Notes: a model not told the origin generated them from the letters alone. Counted from the stretch's first letter, positions 2,239-31,558 are shown. The stretch is 32,571 bases of DNA from Thiobacillus sp. (GCA_013335435.1 JAAXVP010000005.1:1-32571), one strand, 5' to 3'. A program made the numbers and translations.

Positions 2239-5200
2239 TCACCCGCACGCCCCCACCGCCCCACACGCCGTGCAGAAATCGCAGCCATCCTTGCGGATCA
2301 CCGTCTCGTTGCCGCACTCCTTGCAGCGCTTGCCCTTCATCGCCGGCATGGCGGCGGGGGCCTGGCCGGCCGGGGCGGGGGCTTCCAGGATGCCCATCTG
2401 CTGGATCGGCTGGCCGTCTTCGGTCAAGAGGCCAAGCATGGCGTAGCGGTGGATGATGAGCTGGGCGACGTAGGCCACCGTCGACGGCCAGGTCTGGCTC
2501 TTCTCGGAACCCGGGATCTTGGCCATGAAGTCGCCCAGCGGCTCCTGGTAATTCAGCAGCTTGCGCAGCTTCATGCCGATCCAGGCCGGGTCGATCACCC
2601 GCATGTCGAGCGACAGCAGCTTGCACAGGCCGTCCAGGGCGCGCGGGTAGTCGCCCGACAGCCAGACCGAATAGGGCCGGGTGACGCCGTCAGGCAGGGT
2701 GATCTCCTTCAGGCCGAGGACGAAGTCGTCCTCCGAGGCCGGGTTGAGCACGTCGACGGTCCAGGACAGGGTGCCGTCGGTGCCGGTCTTGGGCTCCTTG
2801 TGGCTGAACAGGACGTCGATCAGCGGGCTTGGGCCTTCCACGTTGAGGGCGCCGATCTGTTCCAACCGCCACTGCACGATCTGGGCCAGGGCCGCGACCA
2901 TGCTGGGCACCGAGCGCAGTTCGCCATGGGGCGGGAAGGGAATGAAGCAGGCGTCGTCGCCGCGGGTCTTGGCCAGGGATTCCAGCTTCAGTTTCAGCCA
3001 GGCGCGGTCGTTGGCGCGCATGTCCATGGACAGTGACTTGGCCAGGGCGCCGAGGCCGCGCGGCTGCTCGGCGCCGTTGACCCAGAGCTCGAACGGCCAG
3101 GCCTTGCCGCCGCCGTTCTCCACATGGCCGACGAAGATGGCGAAGCTGCCGTGGGGCGATTCGATCATGTAGCTCCAGGCCATGTTGCCGCCCGGCAACT
3201 TGGGCCGGCCGGGCCACTTCAGCGATTCCAGCACCGGGGCGGGGACGTTCTTGATCTCGATGCGGCGGTTCACGTCGCTGATCTGGAAGTCCTGCGGCGC
3301 GGCCTTTTCCTTCTCGACCGAGAGCACGCTGCCGAGCACGGCGTTGGGCCGGTAGGTGGTGATGCCCTTGAGGCCGGCCTTCCAGGCGGCGCTGTAGAGC
3401 TCGGAAAAATCGTCGAACGGATAGTCGCCGGGCACGTTGACGGTCTTGGAGATGGCCGAGTCGACGAACGGCGCCACCGCAGCGACCATCTGCATGTGGT
3501 CCAGGGCGGAGATCTCCAGGGCGGTGACGAAGCTGGCGGGCAGGCGCTCCATGTCGCCGCCCTGGTCGCGGTAGATGCGGTAGGCGTGGTCCTCGACCTG
3601 GTATTCCTTGTGGCCGCCGTCCGGCATGCGCTTCTTGCGCGTGTAGTACCAGGAGAACGGCGGCTCGATGCCGTTGCTGGCGTTGTCGGCGAAGGCCAGC
3701 GAGATGGTGCCGGTGGGGGCGATGGAGAGCAGGTGCGAGTTGCGGATGCCATGCTCGCGGATATCGGCCTTGAGCTCGGCCGGCAGGCGCGAGGCGAAGG
3801 TGCTGCCGGAGAGATACAGGTCGGCGTTGAAGAGCGGGAAGGCGCCGCGTTCCTTGGCCAGCTCGACCGAGGCCTTGTAGGCCTCGTTGCGCATGAACTC
3901 GGCCGCCTTGCCGGCGAAGATGCGCGCCAGGTCGGTGTCGTAACGCAGGCCGAGCATGACCAGGGTGTCGCCCAGGCCGGTGAAACCGAGGCCGATGCGG
4001 CGCTTGGACTGGGCCTCATTGTTCTGCTTGTCGAGCGGCCAGGCGGTCAGTTCGAGGACGTTGTCGAGCATGCGCACGGCCGTGGCGACGGTCTTGGCCA
4101 GGCCGGCGAAGTCGAACTCGGCCTCGGCCAGGAAGCCCGACTTGACGAACCGGGTCAGGTTGATCGAGCCCAGGCAGCAGCAGCCGTAGGGCGGCAGGGG
4201 CTGTTCGCCGCAGTTGTGGGCGTACAGGCCGTTGGCGTCGAAGGCATTGATGCCAGGCACCTGTACGTCGTAGACATCTTCCACCCCCGCCGGAACCACG
4301 GCCTCGACGCGGGCGGTAAAGCGCTCGCGGTTGAGGGTGCGCTTGTAGCCGGCGAGCAGGGCATCCAGTCGACCGGCCTTGTCGCTATCGGAAAAACCGA
4401 TCCGGTCACGGAAACCCAGCAGATTCTCGCCGCTGACCACCAACTCATGCTGGGCGCGGGTGGCATAGTCGGCCCGGCCGCCCTTGCCATCCGGCAGGCT
4501 GGCGCGGCCGGCAACCCGGCGATCGCGATAGACGGAGGACGCGATACCCAGGCGCAGCAGCATGCGCTGGACAGCCAGCAGGTTGTCGAGGTCCGACTGG
4601 GCCAGTCGCACGGACACCCCTTTTGCCTGGCTGCCCTGGACCGAGCCATCGGTATCGAAAAAACCGCGCAGGAAGCCGCGATAAAACTCGCTGGAACACT
4701 GTTCCATGCGCGCGGTTACGACCTTGTTGCCCGATTCGATGCCAAGCTCAAAGGCCAGATCGCGGATGGCCGCGGTCGAGAGCCGGTATTCACCCCGGCC
4801 GGCCACCTCGGACCATCCGGTGAAATCAGCCCGATGCGGCAAGGCGCGCGCAGCGGCCAGAGCTTCGGCCATCATGGCCTGAACACCGACAGGAAGCGTA
4901 GCGGCGGCGCCGTTTGCCTCCGCCGCGTTACGCCAGACCGAAAGGACGGCGGCCTCCTTGTTGATGGTGCCATCGCCAAGCAACAACCCCATCAGGTAGC
5001 CCTCGTGACGACCATGGCTACCTGACCATGCGCCATTGCCACGGTGATCGTTGATCAGTATGCGGTCGCCTGCCTTTAGCTCGCCGGCCGCACACCACTC
5101 CGTTTCGGTGCGATAGCGGGTAAATTCGGTCACCCGCCGCACGCGATGGTCCGTCGTGAGCTTGAGGCGGTAGCCCTCGCTGGTGACAAGCTGCATGACC

Positions 5201-6216
5201 GGCTTGGTGGCGGTACGGAAGAAACCCTGGGAACCGGTGGCGTGGTCGATGCCGTCGACCCTGGCCAGGAACGGCCGGCCGATCAAGTCGCTCACCTGAC
5301 GCGGACCGTCGGCGGTATGTACCCAGGTATCCGCACTGACGCACGGGTTGGTGGCCTCGATGGTTTCGCAGTAGCCGAGGTTGTTGTCCTTGTTGATGCG
5401 GTCGATGAACAGCACGCCCGGCTCGGCATGGTCGTAGGTCGAATGCATGACCTGGGCCCACAGGTCGCGCGCCTTCACCTTCCGATACACCCAGAGGCCG
5501 TCACCGCGCTGGTAGGCCCCGGCGGCCTTCTGCTCCTCGCCCGGCTCGGCCTTGTGGCTGAGTTCGACGTCGCCGTCGTCCTGGACCGCCTGCATGAAGG
5601 CGTCGCTGACGCCGAGCGAGATGTTGAAGTTCTTCAGGTCGCCGCTGTCCTTGGCGTGGATGAAGTCCTCGATGTCCGGGTGGTCGCAGCGCAGCACGCC
5701 CATCTGGGCGCCGCGCCGGGCGCCGGCCGACTCCACGGTCTCGCAGGAGCGGTCGAACACCCGCATGTAGGAGATCGGGCCGCTGGCGCGCGACTGGGTA
5801 CCCTTGACCAGGGCGCCCTTGGGCCGGATGGTGGAGAAGTCGTAGCCGACCCCGCCGCCCCGGCGCATGGTCTCGGCGGCCTCTTCCAGGGCGTTGTAGA
5901 TGCCCGGCTTGCCGTCGTTGATACCGGAGATGGCGTCGCCCACCGGCTGCACGAAGCAGTTGATCAGGGTGGCCTGGAGTTCGGTGCCGGCGGCGGAGTT
6001 GATCCGCCCGCCGGGAATGAAGCCGGCCTCCATGGCCTCGAAGAAGCGGCGTTCCCAGACCGCACGGGCTTTCTTGTCCTCGACCGCGGCGAGCGCGCGG
6101 GCGACCCGCATGCGCACGTCGGTGACGTTCTTCTCGGTGCCCTTGGCGTACTTCTCAAGCAGGACTTCGGTGGAAATATCCTGCTCGGCCAGTTCCGGAA
6201 ACAGCGCTTCTTGCAT
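2239..6216 (-). CDS. nrdJ: Adenosylcobalamin-dependent class II ribonucleotide reductase (intein-containing precursor)
   Basis: The 1325-residue precursor becomes a 948-residue reductase after removal of a 377-residue intein. It reduces ribonucleotides to deoxyribonucleotides using B12, with no oxygen requirement. Visible marks are INCFVQ (C87, likely one of the redox-active pair), GGGVGYDFS (120-128), [20 protein letters not shown] (166-183), [17 protein letters not shown] with the conserved cysteine C669 (extein numbering C292), IAPTGTIS, and a C-terminal Cys-rich tail ([17 protein letters not shown]) of the kind that shuttles reducing equivalents. The region before the tail resembles the TSCPD-type extension of long NrdJ proteins. 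The ATG at 6216 has GGGAGA seven bases upstream. Upstream NrdR-like sites suggest NrdR control. No class I or III reductase genes are in the window. Confidence 0.95.
4213..5343 (-). mobile_element. Intein with LAGLIDADG homing endonuclease inside nrdJ
   Basis: This in-frame insertion covers precursor residues 292-668. It starts with Cys ([10 protein letters not shown], block A), has TTDH at 354-357 (block B), and ends with block F/G residues [10 protein letters not shown] and GLYAHN, where His667-Asn668 is the standard C-terminal splice pair. The +1 residue is the extein cysteine C669. Two LAGLIDADG motifs are present, [11 protein letters not shown] (406-416) and [13 protein letters not shown] (512-524); both keep the aspartate expected for metal binding (D415, D523), so splicing and homing endonuclease activity both look intact. 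Insertion is exactly between NP and CGEQ of the catalytic-site motif. Confidence 0.96.
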
Positions 6217-7449: not shown

Positions 7450-7812
7450 CTATGTCCTATTCCTGTTATGGCCACGTCGAAGTTCACTGACCTGCACGTG
7501 CTTGGGGCTTAACCCGTCTTTCAGAATCTTGAGCGCCGGCGCGGTATCCCGGTCACCGCACAGGAAAATGTCCAGGGCGATGAAATCGCGTTCCGGCCAA
7601 GTGTGCAGGCTGATGTGGGATTCCGCCAGGATGGCCACGCCGGTGATGCCGCCGCCATCGCCGAAACCGTGCAGGCGTACCTCCAGAACCCGTGCGCCGC
7701 AGGCCTCGGCCGCCGCCCGCAGCAGGGTTTCGACCTGATCGAGGCCGGTGGGCTGGTGGGCGCCCCAAAAGTCGATGAGCAGGTGCAGGCCGGGAGCGTG
7801 GTTTTCGTTCAT
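7450..7812 (-). CDS. speD: S-adenosylmethionine decarboxylase proenzyme (pyruvoyl type)
   Basis: The 120-residue protein is the short bacterial (class 1b, SpeH-like) AdoMet decarboxylase, which makes decarboxylated AdoMet, the aminopropyl donor for polyamine synthesis. The self-processing site is seen in LAESHISLHTWPE: cleavage between E64 and S65 would turn S65 into the pyruvoyl group. H70 and C85 (DIFLCGD) fit the other conserved active-site positions. The ATG at 7812 overlaps the TGA of the preceding membrane-protein gene (ATGA); the frame is open further upstream but that part is only the shadow of the other gene. It is the last gene of the operon and supplies the substrate for the aminopropyltransferase-like gene at 10935-12449. 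Confidence 0.93.
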   Translation of the reverse strand: MNENHAPGLHLLIDFWGAHQPTGLDQVETLLRAAAEACGARVLEVRLHGFGDGGGITGVAILAESHISLHTWPERDFIALDIFLCGDRDTAPALKILKDGLSPKHVQVSELRRGHNRNRT

Positions 7813-8909
7813 GTCTTCGCCGAATTGAAAAATAGGATGGCCTTCCAGGGAGTATTCGCCACGCCCATGCGCCAGATGTAGGCATCCAGCAGGTAGTGGG
7901 TGATCTGGGGCAGCGCCAGGAGGGGAACCAGCCAAGTCAGCAGGGTGGGGCTGTCCAGGCCGGGCAGATGGGCGAAGGTTGGGAATAGCACCGCATGCTC
8001 GCGCCATACCAGACCGTCCCAGAGCCCCTCTTCCAGATAGGCGATCAGGAACAGCAGCGCCAGGTAGATCGGGGCGAACCTCGCCTGGAACAGGCGGGCC
8101 ACCGGCAACAGGTAAGCGGTGCATCCACGATCGTGCGCCTGCTGGTTGCGGCCGTAGATCCAGATCAGGGCGATGTAGGGCACGCCGTGGGCAATGACGT
8201 TGGTGGCGGTGAAGGCCAGATCGTTGTCGAACACCAGGATGCCCACGTACCAGGACAGCGCCGTACCCAGCAGCATGAGGTTCTTGGGCAGGTTCAGCAC
8301 GCCACGCCGCAGTCCGTACACAGTCTCCTTGGCCATATAAACCGCCAGCATGGCCACATAGACCCAGCCTGCTGCCGCCGCCACGGCCGGCGCGTCGAAG
8401 GCCAGGAAATCTCCCGGCACGAACCAGTCGAACTGACGTGGACCGCAATGCCAGGCAATCAGGGGATAGAGCGTGGCGGCATAGATCAATGCCTGGTCCA
8501 GACGTTTGGCCCAGGCGGGGTCCGCGTATTCGGCACGCCGGTAAATCATCAGGAAACCATATTGTTGGCGTACGAAGTGAAACGCCGCCAGATAGGCCAG
8601 GGTGCGCCAGAACACCATGTCCCCCAGCCGGTAGAGCACCACCCCAAGCACGAAGCCGATCAGCGGCGTCAACACATAAAGTGCTTGATGCGAGCGCAGC
8701 TCCCCCCGGTCGAGGTAGGTGCGGAATATCGTGCTCCAGACGTGGCCCACATCCACCCCGACGATGAGCAGCAGCCAAAGCAACGGGGGCGTCTCGGCGA
8801 TGGCTTCGACCGAATCGCCCAGGACCAGCACCAAGCCCGTGACGAGGAAGGCGGGTGCCAGGATGAAGGCCGAATCCAGGCCGGCGGAATGGATCCAGGG
8901 TTGCTTCAT
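7809..8909 (-). CDS. Polytopic membrane protein of unknown function with intramembrane histidines
   Basis: The 366-residue product has roughly nine or ten hydrophobic segments (about residues 14-33, 41-58, 77-97, 101-120, 141-155, 174-193, 211-227, 232-252, 279-292, 322-345). Several histidines fall in or at the edges of these helices: GHVW (H56), RSHQ (H74), AAFHFVRQQYGF (H111), AWHCG (H154), VIAHGVPY (H241) and QITHYLLDAY (H338). That distribution is reminiscent of membrane metal or haem enzymes, but I do not recognise the family. The ATG at 8909 overlaps the TGA of the flavin oxidase gene and its own TGA overlaps the speD start, so it is tightly coupled within the operon. A frame open upstream of 8909 is not coding. 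Confidence 0.85.
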   Translation of the reverse strand: MKQPWIHSAGLDSAFILAPAFLVTGLVLVLGDSVEAIAETPPLLWLLLIVGVDVGHVWSTIFRTYLDRGELRSHQALYVLTPLIGFVLGVVLYRLGDMVFWRTLAYLAAFHFVRQQYGFLMIYRRAEYADPAWAKRLDQALIYAATLYPLIAWHCGPRQFDWFVPGDFLAFDAPAVAAAAGWVYVAMLAVYMAKETVYGLRRGVLNLPKNLMLLGTALSWYVGILVFDNDLAFTATNVIAHGVPYIALIWIYGRNQQAHDRGCTAYLLPVARLFQARFAPIYLALLFLIAYLEEGLWDGLVWREHAVLFPTFAHLPGLDSPTLLTWLVPLLALPQITHYLLDAYIWRMGVANTPWKAILFFNSAKT

Positions 8910-10531
8910 GCCCTTGCCCCCAGATGGTCGAGGACGCCTTCGGCGGCCTTGACGCCGTAGGTGTAGGCCTCCTCGAAGATGGAAATCCCGGCCATGTCCG
9001 AATGGGCGAAGAAGATGGGGGGATGCTGCCGCAGGGCCTGCCGGCGCGCCTCGCCCCAGATGAAACCGGGATGGGGGCGGATCATGGCGTGGCCCCACAG
9101 CCTGAGGTCGATACGCCGGATGGCGCCCTCCAACTCGGGGTGGAGCCGCAACACCTCCGCATGGATCAAGGACTTCCATGCCTCCGCGCCGCGCGCCAGG
9201 GCCTGCTCGCGGGCCGCAGGGGGAGGAAGGTGATCCAGCGGCCAGTACCAGGTAATGACCGTCCGGCGCGGCCGCATCGCCAGGCCCTGATGGGTGGCCA
9301 CCACATAACCGAGCATGGGGCTGCCATATACCACGTTGTCCCAGGCCAGTTCGGCACCGGGCCCGGCAGGCAGGCGATCCAGCGTGAGGTTGGCGACCAG
9401 CCAGGGCGAATACCGGAAATCGCGGTCGTCGATGCCCAAGCGGTCGCTGCGCACGATGCGCCGGGCGACGAAGCGCGGCACGGCCAGGACGACGGCGCGG
9501 GCATGCACCCTCAGCACCCGGTTTTCATCCGGCAGGAAGAGGTCGGTGGCCGGCCGTTTACCGTCCTGAACCCGCACCGCCAGGGCGCGGGTGCGGATAC
9601 GATCGGCGATGGGCGCGCGCAGTTTGTCGACCAGCCAGCCGTTGCCTTCCGGCCAGGTCAGCACGGTGTCGCTTTCCGCGTTGGCGGCGCGGCCGGAGCG
9701 GGAGGCGAAGTAGTGGATGCCGGCCCAGGCGGACACCTCGTCCAGGCCGGCGCCGTAATCGTCGCGGCAACTGTAGTCGAGCAGCCAGCGCAGGTGCTCG
9801 CCCCGGTAGCCCTCCCGGTCCAGCCATTTCCGGAAAGAGATCCGGTCGAGCGTGCGTAGGTCCGGGTCGGCGGAACTCGCGTCGATGGGGATGGCGAAGG
9901 CTCGACGGCCGTCCTTGCCGCGCAGGTTCTTGAATGCCGCCATCCGGTCGAAGAAGCGCCGGTATTCGCCGTGCTCCTCGGCACTTACACCCAATTGCGG
10001 CAGCAAGCCGTCCTGCCACTGGCCGTGCATGAGTAGACGTTCATCGGGATCGGCGCAGAGGGCGTAATCGTCGTAAACGGGTAACCCCGCCGGGTCGTAA
10101 CCGGTAATGACGCCTAGCCGCTCGAACAGATGCCGCACCGCCACCGACTCCTCGCTCGGCAGGGGCACGTAATGGGCGCCCCAGGGGTAGGCGGAAATTT
10201 CATTCGCGCCGGCGCGGGAGTGGCCACCCACGGCGTCTTCCATTTCCGCCAACAAGAAGGACACGCCGGCATCGTGCAGGCGCAGCCCCGCCGCCAAGCC
10301 GCTAATGCCGCCCCCGACGATGAGCACGTCGGTTTCCAGCGTCTGCGTCGGCTCCGGGACGTCGCCTGTGCGCAAACGGTGGCCCAACGTGGCATCCGCG
10401 CCCAGCAGGGCACCCGGAATGGGTGGGGGTGCGTGCCGGGACCACGACCACCCCGCCAGTGCGGCGGAACCGGCCAGGCCGGACGCGCCCAACAGCCAGC
10501 GGCGGCGCGCGGGCGACCGGGGCTGGCTCAT
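8906..10531 (-). CDS. Tat-signal FAD-dependent amine oxidase-like protein
   Basis: The 541-residue protein starts with a twin-arginine-type signal (ARRRWLLGASGLAGSAALAG, residues 8-27), implying export of the folded flavoprotein to the periplasm. After it comes a Rossmann FAD-binding motif, VLIVGGGISGLAAGLRL (69-85), followed by an acidic strand end (LLAEME) and VGGHSRAG (101-108), the GG motif typical of flavin amine oxidases and their relatives. Near the C-terminus, IFFAHSDMAGISIFEEAYTYG resembles the second FAD-contacting region. The substrate is not readable; coupling to polyamine-synthesis genes makes a polyamine plausible. ATGA overlaps join it to genes on both sides. The related phytoene-desaturase-like group is the main alternative. 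Confidence 0.85.
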   Translation of the reverse strand: MSQPRSPARRRWLLGASGLAGSAALAGWSWSRHAPPPIPGALLGADATLGHRLRTGDVPEPTQTLETDVLIVGGGISGLAAGLRLHDAGVSFLLAEMEDAVGGHSRAGANEISAYPWGAHYVPLPSEESVAVRHLFERLGVITGYDPAGLPVYDDYALCADPDERLLMHGQWQDGLLPQLGVSAEEHGEYRRFFDRMAAFKNLRGKDGRRAFAIPIDASSADPDLRTLDRISFRKWLDREGYRGEHLRWLLDYSCRDDYGAGLDEVSAWAGIHYFASRSGRAANAESDTVLTWPEGNGWLVDKLRAPIADRIRTRALAVRVQDGKRPATDLFLPDENRVLRVHARAVVLAVPRFVARRIVRSDRLGIDDRDFRYSPWLVANLTLDRLPAGPGAELAWDNVVYGSPMLGYVVATHQGLAMRPRRTVITWYWPLDHLPPPAAREQALARGAEAWKSLIHAEVLRLHPELEGAIRRIDLRLWGHAMIRPHPGFIWGEARRQALRQHPPIFFAHSDMAGISIFEEAYTYGVKAAEGVLDHLGARA

Positions 10532-10929
10532 TTGCCGAACCCCATCCGTACGGCCGCCATGGCGAAGGCGAAGACGAATCCGTAGGCGAAGGACTCCAGG
10601 CGCAGTGGCTCCTTGCCCCGGCTGCGCATGCGCGCGCCGATCAGAGCCATCATCAGGCCGGCGCACAACGGGGTCAGGAACAGGTTGAGCCAGCGGGCGG
10701 CGGCGCCGTGGACGAACAGTTCCGGAAACACGAGCAGGCTGATGCCGCCGGCCACCGTGCCGAACAGGGCATGGCCCAGAGTGGCCAACCAGGGATTGAT
10801 GGGGCCGCGCCGGAACGGCTCGCGCACACTGCGTAGGCCCACTTCAGCCAGCAGTTCGAAAACCGCCTGGAGGGCGATTTCCAGTATGGCCTGAAGCAGG
10901 TAAGCGAGGATTTCCGCCAGGATTTCCAT
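10528..10929 (-). CDS. Small membrane protein of the polyamine-type operon
   Basis: This 133-residue protein has a short N-terminal amphipathic/hydrophobic stretch (residues 1-30, LAEILAYLLQAILEIALQAV), followed by two or three membrane helices: around 47-70 (LATLGHALFGTVAGGISLLVF), 80-98 (LNLFLTPLCAGLMMALIGAR) and 113-128 (FAYGFVFAFAMAAVRM). I do not recognise the family. The ATG at 10929 lies five bases past the aminopropyltransferase stop codon, and its TGA overlaps the flavin oxidase start. Its position between those two genes suggests it is an accessory membrane subunit. Confidence 0.8.
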   Translation of the reverse strand: MEILAEILAYLLQAILEIALQAVFELLAEVGLRSVREPFRRGPINPWLATLGHALFGTVAGGISLLVFPELFVHGAAARWLNLFLTPLCAGLMMALIGARMRSRGKEPLRLESFAYGFVFAFAMAAVRMGFGK

Positions 10930-10934
10930 GTCGG

Positions 10935-12449
10935 CTACCAGACGGTCTGGTAGGCCCCCCATTCCTCGTCGAAGTAGCGCACCAACACCTGGTTGTCGAG
11001 CCGCTGCACACCGCTGTCGACATAGGCCATGTCGGCCGGGAAATGCAGCATGCGTTCGGTTTCCTCCACGCTCACGTAACGCAGCCCGTCGGGATAGCGT
11101 TGCGGCGGCGACCAGTGTCCCCGGCTGGCGAGCAGGTAGCCCCACTCGCCGAAGGCCGGCACATAGGCATGGTAGGGGGTGACTTGGTAGCCCGCCGCCG
11201 CCAGGGTGTTGCGCACGCACCAATAGGACTTGCGTGCCACCAGCGGCGAGGTGCTTTGCACGACGATGCGGGTCTCCGCATGGGTCAGCCCGTGCAGGGC
11301 CCGATAGAAGCTCAACGAATAGAGCTTGCCGATGGAGTAGTTGGAAGGGTCCGGCAAGTCGATGACGATGGCGTCGTAGGGCGGCATGCCGGCTGCCGCC
11401 GACTTGCGCACCCAGAGGAAGGCATCCTGGTTGATGATCCGCAACCTGGACGACTTGAGGGCATCGCCGTTCAACGCCGTGAGCAGTTCATTGCCGGAAA
11501 ACAGCCGGGTCATGGCCGGGTCCAGGTCGACCAGGGTGACGTGTTCCACCGCCGGATATTTCCATATTTCGCGTAGCGCCAGGCCATCGCCGCCGCCGAT
11601 GATCAGCACGCGCCGAGGCCGGTCCAGCGACGCCAGTGCCGGGTGCACCAGTGCCTCGTGATAGCGGTATTCGTCCAGGCTGGAAAATTGCAGGTTGCCG
11701 TTGAGGTAAAGGCGCAGGTCCCGGCCGGCCCGGGTCAGCACGATGCGCTGGTAGGGGGTGGACTGGGCGTGGATCACCCTGCCCGGATAGGTGGCCGCTT
11801 CCGCCGTGCCGGTGATGTCCTCGGCATGGATGAACCCCGCCAGCAGTGCCAGCAGGACCACGAAGGCCATGCCGCGCTGCGGCCGGGCGCCGGGGATGGC
11901 GTCCGGGACCGCGTAAAGAAGCCACAGGGCCACCAGCACGTTCATCATGCCGAACAGGAAGCCGGTCTGGATCAGGCCCAGGTGGGGCACCAGCAGGAGG
12001 GGGAAAAGGATGGAGGCGAACAGGGCGCCGGCGTAATCGAAGGTGAACACCCGGGAGACCAGGTCGCTGAACTCGAAACGGTCCTTGAGGATGCGCAGCA
12101 GCAAGGGGATTTCGATGCCCACCAGGATGCCCACGGCGAGGACGTCGGCATAGAGGATGACGCGGAACGATTCCACCCGCTCGAAGACCAGGAACAGCAG
12201 GGCCGCCGAGCCGCCGCCCAGGGCGCCGACCAGGATTTCCACCTGTACGAACACGGCCACCAGATTGCGCCGGACATAGCGCGACAACCAGGAACCGATG
12301 CCCATGGCCGAAAGGTAGGCGCCGATGATGGTGGAGAACTGGGTGACCGAATCGCCCAGGAGATAACTCGCCAGGGTGCCGGCGATCAGCTCGTACACCA
12401 GCCCGCAGGTGGCGATGACGAAGACGGAGACGAGCAGCAGGAAGGCCAA
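10935..12449 (-). CDS. speE: Membrane-fused polyamine aminopropyltransferase (spermidine synthase-like)
   Basis: The 504-residue protein joins an N-terminal membrane domain of about seven helices (residues 1-205) to a C-terminal spermidine-synthase-like methyltransferase-fold domain (about 220-500). The catalytic part shows YQRIVL (233-238), YLNGNLQFSSLDEYRYHEAL (248-267), the nucleotide-binding loop LIIGGGDG (282-289), LVDLD (306-310) and AIVIDLPDP (360-368), matching the aminopropyltransferase pattern. It should transfer the aminopropyl group of decarboxylated AdoMet, made by the speD product of the same operon. The membrane fusion places it at the inner membrane. The start appears to be TTG at 12449, with only a weak AGG seven bases before it; there is no ATG or GTG back to the in-frame TGA at 12522. 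Confidence 0.9.
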   Translation of the reverse strand: MAFLLLVSVFVIATCGLVYELIAGTLASYLLGDSVTQFSTIIGAYLSAMGIGSWLSRYVRRNLVAVFVQVEILVGALGGGSAALLFLVFERVESFRVILYADVLAVGILVGIEIPLLLRILKDRFEFSDLVSRVFTFDYAGALFASILFPLLLVPHLGLIQTGFLFGMMNVLVALWLLYAVPDAIPGARPQRGMAFVVLLALLAGFIHAEDITGTAEAATYPGRVIHAQSTPYQRIVLTRAGRDLRLYLNGNLQFSSLDEYRYHEALVHPALASLDRPRRVLIIGGGDGLALREIWKYPAVEHVTLVDLDPAMTRLFSGNELLTALNGDALKSSRLRIINQDAFLWVRKSAAAGMPPYDAIVIDLPDPSNYSIGKLYSLSFYRALHGLTHAETRIVVQSTSPLVARKSYWCVRNTLAAAGYQVTPYHAYVPAFGEWGYLLASRGHWSPPQRYPDGLRYVSVEETERMLHFPADMAYVDSGVQRLDNQVLVRYFDEEWGAYQTVW

Positions 12450-12751: not shown

Positions 12752-12904
12752 CTATTTGTGGCTGACCTGGCCGCTGGCGGACCGGCTGGCCGGGTCGGTG
12801 TCGTTAAAAAGGCTGGAAACCATGTAGCCCCGGTAATTGGCCCAGGCCATGCCGGCTACCAGGCAAAGGGCGAGGATCTGATACAGGCGAGGCGGTTTAT
12901 TCAT
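12752..12904 (-). CDS. 50-residue single-span membrane or secreted protein
   Basis: A short frame runs from ATG at 12904 (or one codon earlier, 12907) to TAG at 12752, giving 50 residues. It has a positive start (MNKPPRLYQ), one hydrophobic segment (ILALCLVAGMAWANYRGY, residues 10-27), and a polar tail rich in Ser and Asp. It overlaps the last codons of the DUF4178 gene by eight bases, and its stop is beside the DUF350 ribosome-binding site, so it fits neatly in the operon. I do not recognise it. The tight packing on both sides is the main argument that it is real. Confidence 0.65.
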   Translation of the reverse strand: MNKPPRLYQILALCLVAGMAWANYRGYMVSSLFNDTDPASRSASGQVSHK

Positions 12905-14225
12905 CATCGTTGCTTAATGAATTCTTGATGCTGGCGTAGCCCTCCGGCATGTAGTCGCTTTCCGACCAGCGCGCGTATTCGAAACCGTGATGGCGCAGCC
13001 AAAGAAACGCGGGGTAAGGCAGCAGGGCCAGCAATAGGGCGAACCAGTTGGACCAGATGGGGGTGTCGCGCAATACCCGCACGCTGAAGGTCTGCTTGCC
13101 GGGCCGCCCCAGCTGGAAATCCCCCGCGTCCGGCTCCAGGACGAGCCGGTACTGGCCGCCGGGCACGGCCGAGAAACAGTTCGAGGCCTTGGTATCGCCC
13201 TCGCTCCAGTGTTCCCCGCCATCGTAGCCGGAGTAGTACTCCATGCCCTGGAGCAGGTTGCGGCGTTCCAGGGTGGCTTCATTGACCAGGGTCGCGCTCA
13301 GTTCCGCCCAACTGTTGTTGAGTACCGCCTGGCTCTCAAGGCAGACGTTGGCGCTTTCCTTTTGCAGGACGAAAGAATGGCTTACATGGGTCCGGTCGGG
13401 GCTTTCTGTCGTGGCATCGAAGGTATCCACAAGAGCCTGCTGGCCGGATGCGCTGTAAACCTGGGCAAACTGGATGGCAGTGGCCACCAGCGTCGCCAGC
13501 AGGGCCGCGCGCAGCACACCGGGCAGGCGCCGGGCGAACGACGAGGGCTGGTTGGCCGCCACGCCACGCGGCGGCGGCATCTTGCCAGGGTCGATGGCAA
13601 AGGCGGCGGCGATTTCCTCCTGGCTGACATAAACGCCCAGGGCGGTGTTCGTCTCATCCTTCCCCTTCTCCACCGACAGGATGTAGGGCGGCGCGATGGA
13701 ATCGCTGACCTGTGCCGTATCACCCTTCTTCACACGCCAGTAGAACTCCCCCAGCACGTAGTCCACCCTGGCCTCGCCCGTGAAGAAGCGGGCGAAACTG
13801 GCCTCCGCCGGCAGGGCCATGCCGCTCTTGATCACCCGATATAAGGTCCAGTGGCCTTGCGCCTGAGCCAGGAAGCGGAAGCCGTGACGCGGGTTGAACA
13901 ACAGGTACTCCTCCCAGGCGTATCGGCCCTCCTGGGCGGAACCGCTGCTGCGTTCCTGGTAGCCGATAACCTCCCAGGGAGTCCCCTCTAGGCTGGCTCG
14001 GGTACCCAGGGGAATGAGCAGGGGGCGTTGGCTTTCCCAGGCCTTATTCAGGACCTTCACGTCTTCCCGCGCCACGTCCAGCAAGGAGCCGCATTGGCTG
14101 CACGCCGCGTTGACGCTGTGGCCAACCGCGCGCAGTGTGATGGCGCCGCCGCAGACCGGACATTGCATGACTTGCGGCCGGCCGGCCGGCGAGGCCGATG
14201 GCACCGGGATTTCCGGCTCGGCCAT
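12897..14225 (-). CDS. DUF4178 protein with zinc ribbon and two membrane helices
   Basis: The 442-residue product opens with a zinc ribbon (CPVCGG at 22-27 and CSQCG at 42-46), then a DUF4178-type beta-rich domain (about 65-200; LEGTPWEVIGYQER, WEEYLLFNPRHGFRFL, WRVKKGDTAQV). A membrane helix follows (about 231-258), then an extracytoplasmic domain of roughly 130 residues, a second helix (about 393-413, WFALLLALLPYPAFLWLR) and a short tail. DUF4178 proteins are uncharacterised and often sit beside SPFH, PspA or polyamine-related genes. The ATG at 14225 directly follows the TAG of the next DUF4178 gene upstream. The two DUF4178 genes look like a divided-function pair: this one is the membrane-anchored version. 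Confidence 0.82.
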   Translation of the reverse strand: MAEPEIPVPSASPAGRPQVMQCPVCGGAITLRAVGHSVNAACSQCGSLLDVAREDVKVLNKAWESQRPLLIPLGTRASLEGTPWEVIGYQERSSGSAQEGRYAWEEYLLFNPRHGFRFLAQAQGHWTLYRVIKSGMALPAEASFARFFTGEARVDYVLGEFYWRVKKGDTAQVSDSIAPPYILSVEKGKDETNTALGVYVSQEEIAAAFAIDPGKMPPPRGVAANQPSSFARRLPGVLRAALLATLVATAIQFAQVYSASGQQALVDTFDATTESPDRTHVSHSFVLQKESANVCLESQAVLNNSWAELSATLVNEATLERRNLLQGMEYYSGYDGGEHWSEGDTKASNCFSAVPGGQYRLVLEPDAGDFQLGRPGKQTFSVRVLRDTPIWSNWFALLLALLPYPAFLWLRHHGFEYARWSESDYMPEGYASIKNSLSNDDE

Positions 14226-14873
14226 CTACCAGCCCTCCAGCGGACGGGTATTTTCCAGCTTCAGTTCATCCCAGCCGGCATAACGCCCCTGATACAGACG
14301 CCCTTCGTTCTGGTGGATTTCCAGGCTGGCGAAACCGCCCGCGCCTTCCAGGTCGATGGCCAGCGCCTTCCGGCCCCGGTTGGCGAGGAAAGGCAGTTCG
14401 CCCTCGCTACCCAGGCAGATGGTATGTTTGACGTCCACCACTTCCCAGGCCCGTTCGCCCACGTTCACGCGCTCGCCCGGCTTGGGTTTCCAGGTGGCGA
14501 GATCGCGGTTGATCACGGGGCGGCCCTCATGTTCCAGCGGCCGTTCGAAGCAGGCGGCGAAGAAGCCCTGGGCTTCCGCCAGCCAGCCCTTGCGAGCGTC
14601 TTCGGTGACCATGAACCACTCGTTCCAGGTGCCGTCCTGCCAGCCGATCTTCACCCGGCCCAGCAAGGAGAAGCCGACGCCGTCCAGCACGCCGCGGGTA
14701 CCGATCTGGAAAGGACTCATGTCCGGCGGCAGGGCCGCCATCTTGCCGAACGCCTCCACATCCACGTCGCGGCGCAGGATCATGCTTTTGCAATGGTTAC
14801 AGACGGCGTAGACCGAGATGCCGGAATGGAACTCTCCCGGTGCGCCGCAGGCTGGGCAAGTGTATCCGTGCAT
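14226..14873 (-). CDS. Soluble DUF4178 protein with zinc ribbon
   Basis: This 215-residue protein has a zinc ribbon (CPACG, C6 and C9; CNHC, C25 and C28) followed by a DUF4178-type domain covering most of the chain: GTRGVLDGVGFSLLGRVKIG, WNEWFMVTEDARKGWLAEAQ and GERVNVGERAWEVVDV. No membrane helix is seen, so it is probably cytoplasmic and may be attached to the membrane through partners. The gene is nine bases downstream of the SPFH gene and abuts the larger DUF4178 gene. The ribosome-binding site before ATG 14873 is weak. Function unknown; related proteins occur with Bacillus YdjI-like SPFH proteins. Confidence 0.82.
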   Translation of the reverse strand: MHGYTCPACGAPGEFHSGISVYAVCNHCKSMILRRDVDVEAFGKMAALPPDMSPFQIGTRGVLDGVGFSLLGRVKIGWQDGTWNEWFMVTEDARKGWLAEAQGFFAACFERPLEHEGRPVINRDLATWKPKPGERVNVGERAWEVVDVKHTICLGSEGELPFLANRGRKALAIDLEGAGGFASLEIHQNEGRLYQGRYAGWDELKLENTRPLEGW

Positions 14874-14882
14874 GGACCGGGC

Positions 14883-15884
14883 TTACTGGATGCGGCCCAG
14901 CAATTCCGTCTTCTTGGCCTCGAATTCGGCCTGGGTGATCAGGCCCTTGGCGAGCAGGTCGCCGAGTTTCTCGATCAAGGCAATAGGATCCTCCTGGGCC
15001 GGGCCGGCGGTCGCGGCGGCTGGCGGGGTTGCCGTCATGGCCTGCCCCATTGCTTGCGCCATGGCCAGCCCGGCCCCCATGCCGGCGCCGATCCCGGCGA
15101 TGCCGCCGGGGTTCTCGGCCGCCAGGGGGATGGCATCGGCGGTCTGGAAGCGGGTGTATTGCCCCAGGTCGCCCACGATGCGCTGGGAGGCGGCCCGGTC
15201 CAGGTGTTTTTCCAACTCCTCCGGCAGGGACAGGCTTTGCAGGAAGAAGGTGGCCAGCTCCAGCCCATACTCACGGAAGGCCGGGGCGACGGCCTCCTTG
15301 AGCCGGTTGGAGAACTCGGCCTGGTTGGCGGCCATGTCCACGAAGGCCACGGCGCTGCCCCCGAGGAAACTGCCCAGGGCGGTGAGGATGATGGCCCGCA
15401 GCTGGCCGTCCAAGTCGTCCACGGTATAGCGCGCCGCCGTACCGGACAGCTTGCGCCAGAAAGGCTCCAACTCGGCGATGCGAAATGAATACGTGCCGAA
15501 CGCGCGGATGCGCAGCGGACCGAACTCCTTGTCGCGCACCGTGATGGGCTGGGTGGTGCCCCATTTGCGGTCGATCTGCTCGCGCAGGCTGAAGTAATAG
15601 ACATCCGACTTGAAGGGCGACTCGAAGAACTTGTCCCAGTTCTTCAGGTAGGTCAGCACCGGCAGGGTCTGGGTGGTGAGCGTGTAGGTGCCGGCGTCGA
15701 ACCGGTCGGCGAAGCGGCCCTCGTCTATGAATACGGCCTGTTGGGTCTCGCGCACCACCAGTTGCGCCCCGTTCTGGATTTCCATGTCGGCCATGGGGTA
15801 GCGCCAAGCCAGAACGCCCGGCTCATCTTCCGTCCACTGGATGACGTCGATGAACTGTTTGGCGACAAAATCGAACAGGCCCAT
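14883..15884 (-). CDS. SPFH (Band 7) domain protein with C-terminal SHOCT-like tail
   Basis: The 333-residue protein is of the YdjI-like 'virion core protein' SPFH type. An SPFH domain covers about residues 15-235, with GVLAWRYPMADMEIQNGAQL, VRETQQAVFIDEG and GTYTLTTQTLPVLTYL. A Gly/Ala/Met-rich linker (260-295) leads to a short SHOCT-like motif (DPIALIEKLGDLLAKGLITQ, then EFEAKKTELL), which in other proteins mediates oligomerisation. There is no N-terminal membrane helix; members bind membranes peripherally or through partners. The ATG at 15884 has GGGAGAG about six bases upstream; a frame open further upstream lacks coding character. It is the first gene of the operon, after a 367-base gap that should hold the promoter. 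Confidence 0.88.
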   Translation of the reverse strand: MGLFDFVAKQFIDVIQWTEDEPGVLAWRYPMADMEIQNGAQLVVRETQQAVFIDEGRFADRFDAGTYTLTTQTLPVLTYLKNWDKFFESPFKSDVYYFSLREQIDRKWGTTQPITVRDKEFGPLRIRAFGTYSFRIAELEPFWRKLSGTAARYTVDDLDGQLRAIILTALGSFLGGSAVAFVDMAANQAEFSNRLKEAVAPAFREYGLELATFFLQSLSLPEELEKHLDRAASQRIVGDLGQYTRFQTADAIPLAAENPGGIAGIGAGMGAGLAMAQAMGQAMTATPPAAATAGPAQEDPIALIEKLGDLLAKGLITQAEFEAKKTELLGRIQ

Positions 15885-16251: not shown

Positions 16252-16255
16252 TCAT
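16094..16255 (-). CDS. Possible 53-residue protein coupled to yfaP
   Basis: An ATG at 16255 overlaps the yfaP TGA (ATGA), and the frame runs 53 codons to a TAA at 16094. The product would begin MSVRWRAIVGLVAGSVV, a positive and hydrophobic start like a short membrane anchor. Third-position G+C is lower than in the neighbouring genes, no family is recognised, and E. coli has no such gene after yfaP. The overlap is the only real support, so chance is quite likely. Confidence 0.2.
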   Translation of the reverse strand: MSVRWRAIVGLVAGSVVKRNPGGVIATAAGTSSPKSLRIRALCPAVESDIKVI

Positions 16256-17013
16256 GGGTAGTGGAATTCGCCGATCAGGATCAGTTCGCCGGCGTTGCGC
16301 AACGGCACGGTGAAGAACTGCTTCTTTTCGCCGGGTGTGTTTTCCTGCGAAATGACCGTGACATTGGCGACGGTTATTTCGCCCTCGCCGTCGCCACGCC
16401 CGTAATAGTTCACATACACCAGATAGGCGCCGGGCAAGGGGGCCGGCATCGAGAAGATCTCCGGGCCATAGCCGGTGGTGACATCCACATCGAGCGCGCC
16501 GCCATTGTCGAGCACGCGGTTGCCGTAGAAGGCGTGGCCTCCGTCCGGGGTGACGACGTGCAGATCGAGATCGGTGCCGTCGGTGTCCCAGGCCAGTACG
16601 ACGCGCAATCGGCTTTGCGCGCGGCCGCCGTAGGATTCATGAAACTGGACGCGCCGGCTTGCGCCGCCCGGCGCGCGCAGTTCGACGCTGTTGCTACCCC
16701 GGCCGAAGCTGTAAGGACGCGAGAAACTGCCGTCCGATTCGATCCGTTGCGGCAGTGCCACACCGTTGACGATCAGGGTCGCCGGTGCCCGGCCGGGCTT
16801 CTTCGCCTGGGCGATGCGCCCGGCGATCAGCCCCGCGCGCGACTGGCCTTCCGGCACCGATACCACCACTGCCGGGTAGTTGACCGGCTGGCTGTAGCGC
16901 ACGTTCTGCCCCTCGCTGTTGCGCCAGCCACCGATCGGCGCGGTGATTTCGACATCGGCCGCGCTGGCGGTCGCGCTGAAGAGCAGACTCAGTAGGATCG
17001 TAGCAGTGCGCAT
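16252..17013 (-). CDS. yfaP: YfaP-like DUF2135 secreted protein
   Basis: The 253-residue protein has a Sec signal peptide (MRTATILLSLLFSATASA), then an N-terminal beta domain (about 20-115) and a C-terminal DUF2135-type domain (about 130-250). Diagnostic segments are LRVVLAWDTDGTDLDLHVVT and GGHAFYG followed by GGALDVDVTTGYGPEIF and PGAYLVYVNYYG. E. coli YfaP is of similar length and is encoded by the last gene of yfaATSQP, the order seen here. The role is unknown; a periplasmic beta-sandwich partner of the macroglobulin is a reasonable guess. The ATG at 17013 is 37 bases past the yfaQ stop. Confidence 0.9.
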   Translation of the reverse strand: MRTATILLSLLFSATASAADVEITAPIGGWRNSEGQNVRYSQPVNYPAVVVSVPEGQSRAGLIAGRIAQAKKPGRAPATLIVNGVALPQRIESDGSFSRPYSFGRGSNSVELRAPGGASRRVQFHESYGGRAQSRLRVVLAWDTDGTDLDLHVVTPDGGHAFYGNRVLDNGGALDVDVTTGYGPEIFSMPAPLPGAYLVYVNYYGRGDGEGEITVANVTVISQENTPGEKKQFFTVPLRNAGELILIGEFHYP

Positions 17014-17050
17014 GGCGGGTCGCCTGTTCAGGATGGTGAAGGAATGAGGA

Positions 17051-18754
17051 TCATGGCTGCCCCTCGACTTGCAAGCGCCGCGCCGTGGCTTCGATGAAGC
17101 CTTCGTCGAGGCCGCGCGGATGCTGTTTGAAGGCGAGGTGCAGATATTCGTGGGCCAGGGTCAGGCGCGCCTCGCGGTCGTCGAGTCCGCGCGCGTAGAT
17201 TCGTCCGCGTTCCAGGTCGGCATAGGGGTTGCCTTGACGCAGGCGGCAAACCGCCGGCGCGGGAACGGGCTCGAAGCCGTCTTCGCCGGCCAGCGCGCGC
17301 TGCCATTGCCTCAGTCGGGCACTCAGCCAGTGTTCCGCCCCGGCCAAATGCTCGCAGTCGGTCGCCAGCGGGCTGTCGGTGGAAACCAGGCTGGCGCGCG
17401 GAAAAGCGCCGGCGAGGATCCGGTCGAAAGGCTCGCCCCGCTGCGCCCGCGCCTCGGCCTCACGCCAGGCCAGGCGGTTCGGGCCGGGCTGGTCGAGGTG
17501 GTATTGAACCGGCACGCCATCGAGCACCAGACTGTCCGACCAGTTGGCGATGGCGCGCGCGGCGGCGCTCGGCGGCGACGGGGCGACGCGCTGGCTGGCG
17601 CTGCTGTCGTCGATGGCGAGACAGCCCATTTCACGGCCGGCGTTCTGGTACAGGTAGGTGCGCGCGACGATGGCGAGGGCGCGCGCCGCCGCCTCGGGCT
17701 GCGGCGCCGCCTCGCGCTCCAGCACCCGTGCGACATAATCGTTGACCGCCAGCGTGGCGACCAGACGCGGCCCGGCGAGCTGCTCGATCTCGCCGTCGCT
17801 GCTGAACGCGAGCCGGTTGCCATTGGCAAAGCGTGCCAGGTATCGGCCGCGCAACACGCCGCTGCGCACCGGCCGGCCGGCCGCGTCCTCGACGCCTTGT
17901 AGCGGATAGCGCGCAAACAGGCCGACCCGGACGCATTCGCCGGGCAGCGTTCCCGCATCGGCGCGCAGGGTGGCGGGGAAATGCCTTGCCGCCACCGGCA
18001 GGGCGACATGGCTGGGCCCCGCCGCGCGCAGCCAGATCGGCGTGCCGTCGGCCAGCCAGCCGGCCGCGCCGCCGATGCGCCGATCGGGCTTGTCCGCCTG
18101 GTGCCAACTCCAAGTCTTGGCGCGCAGGCGCGCACCGAATTCACGCAACAACGAGGTATCGCGCGCACCCAGCACGCTCGCCAGCAGCGCGCCCCCGGCC
18201 GCGCGACGCGGCTGCTCCGGCACGCTGGCCAAGGCTTGCAACAGGCTTTCGACGCCGACCAGCGTACCGGGTTGCAGGCCGGACAGATCCCGCAGCCAGG
18301 CCGGCGCCGCACGCGCCTGCCAGTAGCGGCGCCAGTCCGCCGCCGCGATGCCAAGCCGGTGCGGTTGGAAATAGAGTCCGCAGGAGCGCGCCAGGGCGGC
18401 CTCCCGGCCGATGCTGCCGCCGGGCGCGCAGCAATAGACTTCGTCTCGTGAATTGCCGCCGCAGACGTAGTCCTCCGAGTCGAGCCGCCGGTCGATCAGA
18501 TAGACATAGACAAACAGCTTCCAGACGCTGCCCAGTGGGGTTTGCAGGCGCGGGTCCAGGCGCGCTTCCGGTGCCGGCCGCATCGACTCCGAATCCGAAC
18601 CCGAATCCGACGCCAGCCAGTAGCGTGCCTGGCCGTTGCGCAACGCGGCGTATTCCACGGCGCCGGCCCATGCCGGGGTGGCGGCCAGGAGCGCCAGGCC
18701 GAGCGCGCCAGCCCGCATCCGGGAAACATGGCCGTACCGAAACCGGAAAGCCAT
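17051..18754 (-). CDS. yfaQ: YfaQ-like DUF2300 protein with PBP-like, SpoIID-like and HExxH segments
   Basis: The 567-residue exported protein (signal peptide ending ATPAWA near residue 30) is a DUF2300/YfaQ protein. Its N-terminal part resembles a penicillin-binding/beta-lactamase fold: GSVWKLFVY contains SxxK (S76, K79), and ALARSCGLYF (120-129) sits where SxN is expected. The middle (about 333-415) resembles SpoIID lytic transglycosylases: VNDYVARVLEREA, ALAIVARTYLYQNA and DDSSASQRV. The C-terminus has LAHEYLHLAF with HEYLH at 535-539 and acidic residues E551/E555, a zinc-peptidase-like motif. The three-part reading is mine; activity is untested. The ATG at 18754 is two bases past the yfaS stop. 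A second ATG at residue 13 would also give a good signal peptide. Confidence 0.88.
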   Translation of the reverse strand: MAFRFRYGHVSRMRAGALGLALLAATPAWAGAVEYAALRNGQARYWLASDSGSDSESMRPAPEARLDPRLQTPLGSVWKLFVYVYLIDRRLDSEDYVCGGNSRDEVYCCAPGGSIGREAALARSCGLYFQPHRLGIAAADWRRYWQARAAPAWLRDLSGLQPGTLVGVESLLQALASVPEQPRRAAGGALLASVLGARDTSLLREFGARLRAKTWSWHQADKPDRRIGGAAGWLADGTPIWLRAAGPSHVALPVAARHFPATLRADAGTLPGECVRVGLFARYPLQGVEDAAGRPVRSGVLRGRYLARFANGNRLAFSSDGEIEQLAGPRLVATLAVNDYVARVLEREAAPQPEAAARALAIVARTYLYQNAGREMGCLAIDDSSASQRVAPSPPSAAARAIANWSDSLVLDGVPVQYHLDQPGPNRLAWREAEARAQRGEPFDRILAGAFPRASLVSTDSPLATDCEHLAGAEHWLSARLRQWQRALAGEDGFEPVPAPAVCRLRQGNPYADLERGRIYARGLDDREARLTLAHEYLHLAFKQHPRGLDEGFIEATARRLQVEGQP

Positions 18755-18756
18755 TC

Positions 18757-21700
18757 TCAGCGCACCCGCCAGGACTTCCGGCCGTCGGCTTCGTAGGCCT
18801 TGTCGTTGGGCTGGTACATGCGGAAGTAGCGCGTCGGCGGCAAGACGAACCGGCCACGCTGCAGGAAGCGCACCAGTTGTCGCGTTACGACTGGGCCGTC
18901 GAGCTGGGCCAGCGGAACGCGATAGCCGAGTTGCCCCGTTTCATATTCCGGCGGGGCAAAGGCGACGGCCGCGGCCTCGCCCTTCTCGTCGCGCTCCAGT
19001 CCGGCGATTTGGATGCCCCAGGTGGAGGCCTCGACCATGCCGCCGGGCGGCAGGGGCACTTCCAGCAGACCATAGCGATGGCGTCGGCCCTGTGCGGGTA
19101 CCAGGGTCACTTCATCGACATAAAGCGTGGCACTGGACAAAGCCTCGCCCGGCGCGACCGGCAAGGCCTTGAATTGCAAATCGCCACCTTGCGATTCCAG
19201 GCGGTAGAGTTGGCGTTTCACTGCCACCGGCAGGCGCCCGTTTGCCTTCTCGAACGCGGTGTAGCGCAGGCTGGCGCTGATCGGCGCAGCGGGCGCGCCC
19301 GCCAGGCGGATGCGGTTCGGCCAGGCGATGCCGTTTGGCCAGAGCCATTGGCCGGCTTGCGGAATCCAGTCCAGTGGCCGCAGTTGCGTCCTGGCCGGGA
19401 CGCGGAAGCCACCCAGCACGCGATGTACCCAAGCCAGGGTCATCGCCCGTTCCAAGGTCGGCTGTTCGCCGCCGCTGCGGCTCAGTATCGTCTCCGGCGT
19501 CCAGGCGCGCGGGTTGCCATTCAAGCGCAGCAAGGCATGCAGGAAGGGCGAGTCCGATGCCGGCAGCGCATCCATGGCCTTGCGATGGAGCGTGTCCGCC
19601 CCTGCCGGCAGTCTGCCCCCGGCCACGGTGAGCTTCAGCAACAGCGCGCTGGCCAGACGCGCATCGCGCGAATCGGGCGCGGCGAACACCAGGCTGTCGC
19701 CGGGCGCCGGGGCGGCTTCCCGTGCCTCGATACCGTCGGCCAATTGCTGCGCCAGGCCTCCCGCCAGACCTTCCACCGGCAAGCCCATCTCCTTCGCCCA
19801 CCAGAGCAGCAGGGCGCGCTGCAGAAGCGGATCGGCCTCGCCGCGTTTGCGGTAGACCTCGAGCACATGGCGCCAGTTGTCGGCCGGCAGTTCCAGGCCG
19901 AGGCTGCGCGAGGCGAAGTAGTCGGCGTAGTAGGCATAGCCGGTCATGAATGCGCTCTCGGCGCCGGCACGGCCCCACCAGCCGAACACGCCGTCACTGC
20001 CTGCCATCTGGATCAGGCGCAGGCGTTGCGCCTGCAACTGGCTATCCAGGCCGCTGGCGCCGGCGCCGTCATGCAGCGCCTGGCGCGCCAAGGCCAGCGG
20101 GATCAGGCGGCTGGAGGTTTGTTCGACGCAGCCATAGGGATAGTCGAGCAGGTCGTCGGCAACTTGCCTGAAACGGTCCGCGGCGTTGTCGGCCAGGCTC
20201 AGGCGCAGGTCGCGGGCATCGGCGGGCAGGTGGACCGGCGTGCTGGCCGCGGCCAGATCGATGTGGTCCTGATGCGGCGAGGGCCAGGCCACCGGCGACG
20301 AGCGCAGGTCGACGGTCAGGCTGTCGACGATCTTACCGCCGCCGTTCCCGGCCACCACCAGTTGCAGGCCAAGCTGGCCGCGATGCGCCTTCTTCAACTG
20401 CACCGGGAAGAAATTCGGGCCGGGGCGCATGATCACCGGGCGGACATTCGTGCTGCCGGCGAACAGGGTGCGGAATTCGGCGCGGACGTCCTTGTTGCCC
20501 CGGTTGAAGCCGACCACGTCGATGATCGGTTCGTCGTCGTCGCGGTAATCGCGCGGGCCGGGCCATTTCAGATACAGCGCCTTGTCCGATTGAACGTAAG
20601 CCCGACGCTGGCCGGCGCTGCCGTCGTCGCCCAGCGCACGCGCGGTGATGCGCCAGCGGGTCAGCGAATCCGGCACCTTGAAGCTGGCCGAGGCGCGGCC
20701 CTTGGCGTCGGTACGCAGGTCGGGGAACCAGGCGGCGGTATCGATCTCGTCGCGCCGCGGGCGTTCCAGCACCTTGACCCGGCGTTCCGGGTGCGCGACC
20801 TGGCGCGCGCCTTCGCCGCCGTAGTCGCGCGCCAGGTCGTAGCCGATGAAGGCCAGGCTGGAACTGGTGCGTACGTTGTCGCGGCGAACGTGGTGCAGGA
20901 ATTCGTCGAGGTCGGGCGCCAGTTCGGGTTGCAGTACATAGATCATTTCGTCGACCACGCCGACCGTCAGATGCGCCGCGACCGGCTTGCCGGCCAACCG
21001 GGCAGCGAACCGCAGGCGCGCGGTTTCGCCGGGCTGGTAGACCGCCTTGTCGGACTGGATGTCGATGTCGATGCGTGGATGTTCGACCACCAGACCCGCG
21101 TTCTGGAACACGTATTCAGCGTTCCGGACCATGACCGCCGAAAACGTCATGTTGGGCGCCATGTCCTCGGTGACGCGCAGCCGCACCCGCCATTGGTTGC
21201 CGGCCAGGCGCTGGACGCTGTCGAGCCAGGCGGCGGGACGCGACAGCAGCGCATGGTGGGCGACGTTATCGCGCTCCAGCGTGAGCAGCGCGTCGTCGAC
21301 CGGCTCGGGAAAGGTCAGCAGCAGTTCCGCCGCGTCGCCCACCGCGTAGCGCGGTTTGTCGGTGACGATCTCGATGCTGCCGGGCATGGTCCGGATACCC
21401 TTGCCGCTGACCCAATGGGTCGCCGCACCGAGCAGGTTGCCCTGGCCGTCGCGCAGGTTGACGGTATAAGAGCCGGACGCGGGGAAATCCACGTTCAGGC
21501 TACCGGCGCCATCGGCGAGCCGGCCCTCGCTGCGCGCGCGGTCCTCCAGGCGGATGACCTCCCAGCGCGCGCCGGCGAGCCGACCCGCGCCCTCCAGCTT
21601 GAACACCACCTTGGCGCCGGGTTCGCTGAAACGTGCCGGCGCGACCAGACGCCAGGGCTGGGCGCCGCGTTCCACCAACAGTTCGCGGCTGATCTTGACC

Positions 21701-23915: not shown

Positions 23916-23921
23916 GCCGGC

Positions 23922-27690: not shown

Positions 27691-27756
27691 GCCCTTGCCG
27701 AGACGGCCTGACACCGGGCCGCTCGGGTGTTCGCAACGTTTCGGAGTCCCACGCGG

Positions 27757-31549: not shown

Positions 31550-31558
31550 GACGCCAAG

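Follow-up and report, generated by a model that had tools for sequence, protein, structure and literature searches.

The question raised by this locus is what an exported flavin oxidase does when its gene lies between those of two membrane proteins, neither of which matches a family in Pfam or NCBIfam. The locus is part of a 32,571-nucleotide stretch of DNA from Thiobacillus sp. (GCA_013335435.1 JAAXVP010000005.1:1-32571), the whole of which is referred to here as the window. A sequence-only reading described a three-gene core, consisting of a small membrane protein (MP1), a flavin amine oxidase-like protein with a twin-arginine translocation (Tat) signal (here the FAD protein, from flavin adenine dinucleotide), and a nine- or ten-helix membrane protein (MP2), and suggested that the oxidase and a haem- or metal-binding MP2 could form an electron-transfer pair separable from polyamine synthesis. 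The coordinates and ATGA overlaps of the three genes are confirmed on the minus strand. The FAD protein and MP2, however, seem to be late steps of a published, poorly understood class of bacterial operon, apparently one for aminopropyl transfer, which also includes a spermidine-synthase-like SpeE fused to a membrane domain (the SpeE fusion) and the S-adenosylmethionine (AdoMet) decarboxylase SpeD.

Occurrence and nesting of the operon genes

MP2 and the FAD protein were counted in 795 genomes (399 Pseudomonadota and 396 Bacteroidota). A first genome scan gave seven MP2 loci. Close members of MP2 are present in one Pseudomonadota genome, that of the window itself, and in 11 Bacteroidota genomes, in addition to a distant group. 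A profile search for the FAD protein was positive in 28 genomes, 12 with MP2 and 16 without, and every MP2-positive genome is also FAD-positive (12 out of 12; Fisher P 2e-19). No close MP2 homologue without the FAD gene was found, save for one decayed MP2 gene containing stops (L054, about 9049-9374), a remnant of gene loss with no FAD or SpeE match in the stretch examined. No MP2 relatives were found by a scan of viral contigs.

Across the 18 MP2 loci (the window, L001-L007, and L044-L053), which span the Betaproteobacteria, Alphaproteobacteria, and Bacteroidota, the gene order DUF350, SpeE fusion, FAD, MP2 is kept without exception, with DUF4178 and SpeD beside these genes in all 18. The pairing of FAD and MP2 is therefore not due to chance, being kept by homologues across these three groups. 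Nor are the oxidase and membrane genes separable from the polyamine-type genes, as had been proposed: the SpeE fusion and SpeD accompany them at 18 of 18 loci, and at none do they occur together without SpeD. The position of SpeD does differ, at the end of the operon in the window and at its start in the Bacteroidota loci. A small open reading frame (ORF) with a transmembrane segment in the Bacteroidota loci (L004 and others) is the positional counterpart of the 51-amino-acid ORF of the window, and an SPFH/Band-7 neighbour is conserved in L001, L002, L098, L102-L107, and L110.

At the 16 FAD loci that lack MP2 (L098-L113), the SpeE fusion is adjacent or near in 14, and is several kilobases from the FAD gene in the other two (L109 and L111); several (e.g. 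L105, L108, and L112) have no SpeD within the stretch examined. MP1 is rarer still. A homologue (71 %) is found only in L002, a relative within Thiobacillus, and is absent from all other MP2 loci; in L001, the SpeE and FAD genes directly adjoin with no MP1 between them. When 100 genomes from the family of the window were searched, strong MP1 matches came only from the window and one other, probably the record of L002. The parts are thus nested, from the SpeE fusion to the oxidase, to the ten-helix protein, and to MP1, since FAD occurs without MP2 and no intact close MP2 was found without FAD. Overlaps of four bases (ATGA) link MP1 to FAD, FAD to MP2, and MP2 to SpeD; because SpeD overlaps MP2 in the same manner, gene coupling reaches past MP1, FAD, and MP2. 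With MP1 confined to two loci and the coupling including SpeD, a three-gene core is not supported.

In L106, L107, and L110, FAD and SpeE are paired on one strand and the SPFH-DUF4178-SpeD set is on the other, so that in some relatives belonging to the same order the cassette is divided between two transcription units.

A membrane protein family with four invariant histidines

Conservation within MP2 was assessed using an alignment of 29 sequences, 17 close and 12 from distant stand-alone relatives. All six histidines previously listed exist as numbered, and four of these (H56, H111, H241, and H338) are invariant in 29 of 29 sequences; H74 and H154 are not conserved. The protein has ten histidines in total and 24 invariant columns out of 366, four of which are histidines (binomial P about 0.003). 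Also invariant are D53, D138, D342, R114, Q115, Y117, Y123, Y143, Y245, W45, and W346. The loop charge pattern fits ten helices with N- and C-termini inside. The invariant histidines are in predicted helices 2, 4, 8, and 10, all of which run from outside to inside, and are 7-13 residues ahead of cytoplasmic charges. That the helices run in the same direction is no more than compatible with ligands clustered in space.

The distant relatives (L055-L066) have 21-26 % identity to MP2 and are mostly 390-430 amino acids long. They keep all four invariant histidines and three aspartates in the same motifs, and have extra conserved histidines aligning with Q116, I246, Y252, G253, and T337, which the operon subfamily does not have. 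Neither a FAD nor a SpeE gene was found in their neighbourhoods, which share no common function; one contains a tryptophan-dioxygenase-like gene. Judged from this alignment, the four-histidine (His4) site is real and is older than the link with the FAD enzyme, because it is invariant in distant relatives in unrelated neighbourhoods.

No significant Pfam or NCBIfam match, to transporters or otherwise, was obtained for any of the 24 MP2 members searched, the MP2 sequence had no match in the PDB, and no internal repeat was found between its halves. The outcome that would have refuted the earlier suggestion of bound haem or metal, histidines that vary or membership of a simple transporter family, was thus not seen for four of the six histidines, nor did Pfam or NCBIfam give any transporter family for the protein. 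Based on sequence conservation, MP2 is a His4 membrane family that is unnamed in Pfam and NCBIfam, one subfamily of which is tied to an aminopropyl-type operon.

On motif spacing, MP2 was also compared with haem A synthase, fatty-acid hydroxylases, Brp/Blh dioxygenases, and CREST/PAQR hydrolases, and a likeness to these was not supported. Four of the stand-alone relatives, found in the Bacteroidota search (L056, L057, L059, and L063), share a neighbourhood of PurF-, EngB-, and OsmC-like genes.

The Tat-exported flavin enzyme

The description of the FAD protein as an exported, flavin amine oxidase-like enzyme is borne out in its signal and its predicted fold. The N-terminus carries the twin-arginine motif RRRWLL, and a twin-arginine pattern (R-R or R-K) is present in 33 of the 34 orthologues, with RRQSL in L112. 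An N-terminal FAD-binding Rossmann motif and an amine-oxidase domain both match Pfam above the cut-off, and Foldseek aligns the model with putrescine oxidase, MAO, and SpdH across roughly 520 columns (for 2yg3, 525 columns with an E of 5e-18). From its domains and predicted fold, it is a member of the flavoprotein amine oxidoreductase superfamily. Many orthologues have, after the hydrophobic segment, a cysteine that in several of them is part of a good lipobox (LAGC); for this reason the protein is probably anchored in the membrane on the periplasmic side.

There is no conserved lysine column among the 34 orthologues. Nearly all members of the superfamily have a lysine beside flavin N5, which aids O2 reactivity, although it is not strictly defining; of the enzymes measured, a characterised one without it reacted most slowly with O2 (PMC12224317). 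Since no O2-promoting lysine is conserved, the FAD protein may be a dehydrogenase. This stays a prediction, because sequence is not a reliable guide to oxidase or dehydrogenase activity and because, while Tat-exported relatives with an adjacent cytochrome c gene are dehydrogenases, most of those without a nearby cytochrome have tested as O2 oxidases (PMC12224317). At the 20 loci that were scanned, no ORF with a CxxCH motif, indicative of cytochrome c, recurred as a neighbour of FAD.

Compared with the characterised flavoprotein amine oxidoreductases putrescine oxidase, MAO, SpdH, and NicA2, the FAD protein matches in the Rossmann motif and in predicted fold over its whole length, and shares Tat export with NicA2. 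It differs in having only 14-19 % identity in the fold alignments, in not conserving the flavin lysine, and in being part of a biosynthetic-looking operon. NicA2-type Tat-exported amine dehydrogenases use cytochrome c, whose gene does not recur as a neighbour at the scanned FAD loci.

SpeD, the SpeE fusion, and published operons

In work by Li et al. 2019, SpeE fusions reportedly did not complement a spermidine synthase mutant. The GGGDG and D-x-P-D-P motifs of the SpeE fusion are kept in all of the orthologues listed. In the window, its architecture and its SpeD and DUF350 neighbours are those reported for MFS/spermidine-synthase fusion systems (Li et al. 2019). To these systems, the operon adds FAD, MP2, and MP1. 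A search of the window's own genome found SpeD in a single copy, and SpeE with one strong match and one weak, the latter a second spermidine-synthase-like ORF (G000 contig C484, 10998-11249, minus strand, 266-amino-acid frame, 30.7 bits).

An operon class containing band-7, AdoMet decarboxylase, and polyamine oxidase genes has been published, with the suggestion that membranes change in structure or stability through polyamines or through the aminopropylation of other substrates (PMC11237479). As described in the operon account of that paper, the genes in common with the window are band-7 with SHOCT, DUF350, DUF4178, the membrane-fused SpeE, SpeD, and the flavin oxidase. There these genes are spread over related operon groups, whereas the window has all of them together. 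That account describes neither a ten-helix His4 protein nor MP1, and discusses neither Tat export nor lysine loss for the oxidase.

Proposed pathway

The account proposed here is one of aminopropylation followed by oxidation, with MP2 as an optional last step, and as a whole it is about evenly balanced between being right and wrong. SpeD would make decarboxylated AdoMet, from which the membrane-fused SpeE would transfer an aminopropyl group to a substrate at the membrane that is probably something other than free putrescine. The flavin enzyme, exported by Tat and anchored in the membrane, would then oxidise the product, or its amine, in the periplasm; without a conserved flavin-side lysine, it may hand its electrons to an acceptor other than O2. 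At a metal or haem site within the membrane, ligated by its histidines, MP2 would act on this product as well, and the SPFH, DUF4178, and DUF350 proteins would organise the pathway at a membrane patch, with an envelope function. The nested additions, of the FAD enzyme and then of the His4 protein, suggest that the product is oxidised further at or outside the membrane. If MP2 does bind metal or haem, it would be a new membrane oxidoreductase family. A broader proposal is speculative and on balance rather unlikely: that MP2 defines a hitherto undescribed superfamily of membrane metallo- or haem-oxidoreductases with ten helices and a His4/Asp3 site, and that in this operon it partners a Tat-exported amine dehydrogenase without the lysine in remodelling an undiscovered aminopropylated membrane molecule, such as a lipid. 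What operons of SpeD and membrane-fused SpeE make is a live question in polyamine research, for which this operon is a compact and testable gene set.

Several points weigh against this account. The AlphaFold model of MP2, built from eight sequences, has a mean predicted local distance difference test (pLDDT) score of 57, which is too poor to place the four histidines in space, and the Foldseek list obtained from it is noise; a metal or haem at these histidines is what we infer from their conservation. The FAD protein model is only moderate (pLDDT 63), and the flavin lysine was judged to be absent by conservation and by the MAO motif rather than by superposition. Aminopropylation of a substrate other than putrescine rests on what Li et al. 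2019 reportedly found. In addition, neofunctionalisation can turn SpeD homologues into decarboxylases of ornithine or arginine (PMC10407285).

Alternative explanations

The electron-transfer role first suggested for MP2, as a haem or metal protein that connects the flavin in the periplasm with the quinone pool, would account for its translational coupling to FAD in the window and its adjacency to FAD at every MP2 locus, for a flavin enzyme with neither the O2-promoting lysine nor a recurring cytochrome c neighbour, and for the fact that, elsewhere, the partner that accepts electrons from Tat-exported relatives is encoded close to them (PMC12224317). Yet most cytochrome-less Tat-exported relatives are O2 oxidases when tested (PMC12224317), MP2 is absent from 16 of the 34 FAD loci, and within their helices its histidines are predicted to be nearer the cytoplasm, on the other side from the periplasmic FAD protein. 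The four histidines are also equally conserved in the 12 relatives with no FAD gene nearby. Because of these FAD-less relatives and the MP2-less FAD orthologues, an obligatory partnership is unlikely; the role of electron acceptor in general is improbable. Slightly less so, but still doubtful, is that MP2 is a transporter or flippase of the aminopropylated or oxidised product, in which histidine, aspartate, and arginine residues serve proton coupling or substrate binding. Ten helices with both termini inside is a common transporter layout, and cation binding would be consistent with the invariant D53, D138, D342, R114, and tyrosines; the 24 members searched gave no transporter match, however, the halves show no repeat, and a set of four invariant histidines in four separate helices points more typically to a site for metal or haem.

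It is also improbable that the operon serves ordinary polyamine metabolism, with SpeD and SpeE making spermidine and the FAD protein degrading it as a polyamine oxidase. The genome has no other clear copy of SpeD or SpeE, bar the weak SpeE-like match, NCBIfam labels the SpeE fusion a polyamine aminopropyltransferase, and the oxidase is named a polyamine oxidase in the published operon account (PMC11237479). Cytoplasmic synthesis with a periplasmic oxidase would, however, be an odd pairing, and SpeE is fused to a membrane domain and grouped with SPFH, DUF4178, and DUF350. Furthermore, D-x-P-D-P-(S/T)-(N/S) replaces the usual spermidine-synthase loop in the SpeE part. The preferred reading is that of aminopropyl transfer at the membrane followed by oxidation.

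Operon layout and other genes in the window

The minus-strand operon spans 15884 to 7450, from the SPFH/Band-7 gene to SpeD (Table 1). MP1, FAD, MP2, and SpeD belong to its downstream half, after the SPFH, DUF4178, DUF350, and SpeE fusion genes.

Table 1. Genes of the operon in the window, in order of transcription.
Feature	Coordinates	Strand	Evidence
SPFH/Band-7 protein with C-terminal SHOCT	14883..15884	-	Pfam Band_7_1 2.6e-73, SHOCT 1.3e-8
DUF4178 protein a	14226..14873	-	Pfam DUF4178 1.6e-8
DUF4178 protein b	12897..14225	-	Pfam DUF4178 1.9e-12
Small single-helix ORF, 51 aa	12752..12907	-	Translated sequence inspected
DUF350 (YjfL-like) membrane protein, 73 aa	12523..12743	-	Pfam DUF350 2.9e-12
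SpeE fusion, membrane domain and spermidine-synthase-like aminopropyltransferase	10935..12449	-	NCBIfam NF002956 642 bits, Pfam Spermine_synth 2.4e-30
MP1, membrane protein, 133 aa	10528..10929	-	No Pfam or NCBIfam matches
FAD protein, predicted Tat-exported flavin amine oxidoreductase, 541 aa	8906..10531	-	Pfam NAD_binding_8 2.3e-9, Amino_oxidase 3.3e-7
MP2, predicted ten-helix membrane protein, 366 aa	7809..8909	-	Invariant H56, H111, H241, H338
SpeD, S-adenosylmethionine decarboxylase	7450..7812	-	TIGR03330 107.2 bits (cut-off 75.65), Pfam AdoMet_dc 4.4e-29

Elsewhere in the window, a ribonucleotide reductase large chain with an intein and a LAGLIDADG endonuclease domain (Pfam) is encoded at 2239-6216 on the minus strand. 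A cluster of DUF2135, DUF2300, alpha-2-macroglobulin-like, and DUF2138 genes (16252-25511, minus strand) resembles the yfaPQSTA group of E. coli. Flp/Tad pilus genes (TadE/G-like and CpaB/RcpC) are present at 27727-32407 on the plus strand.

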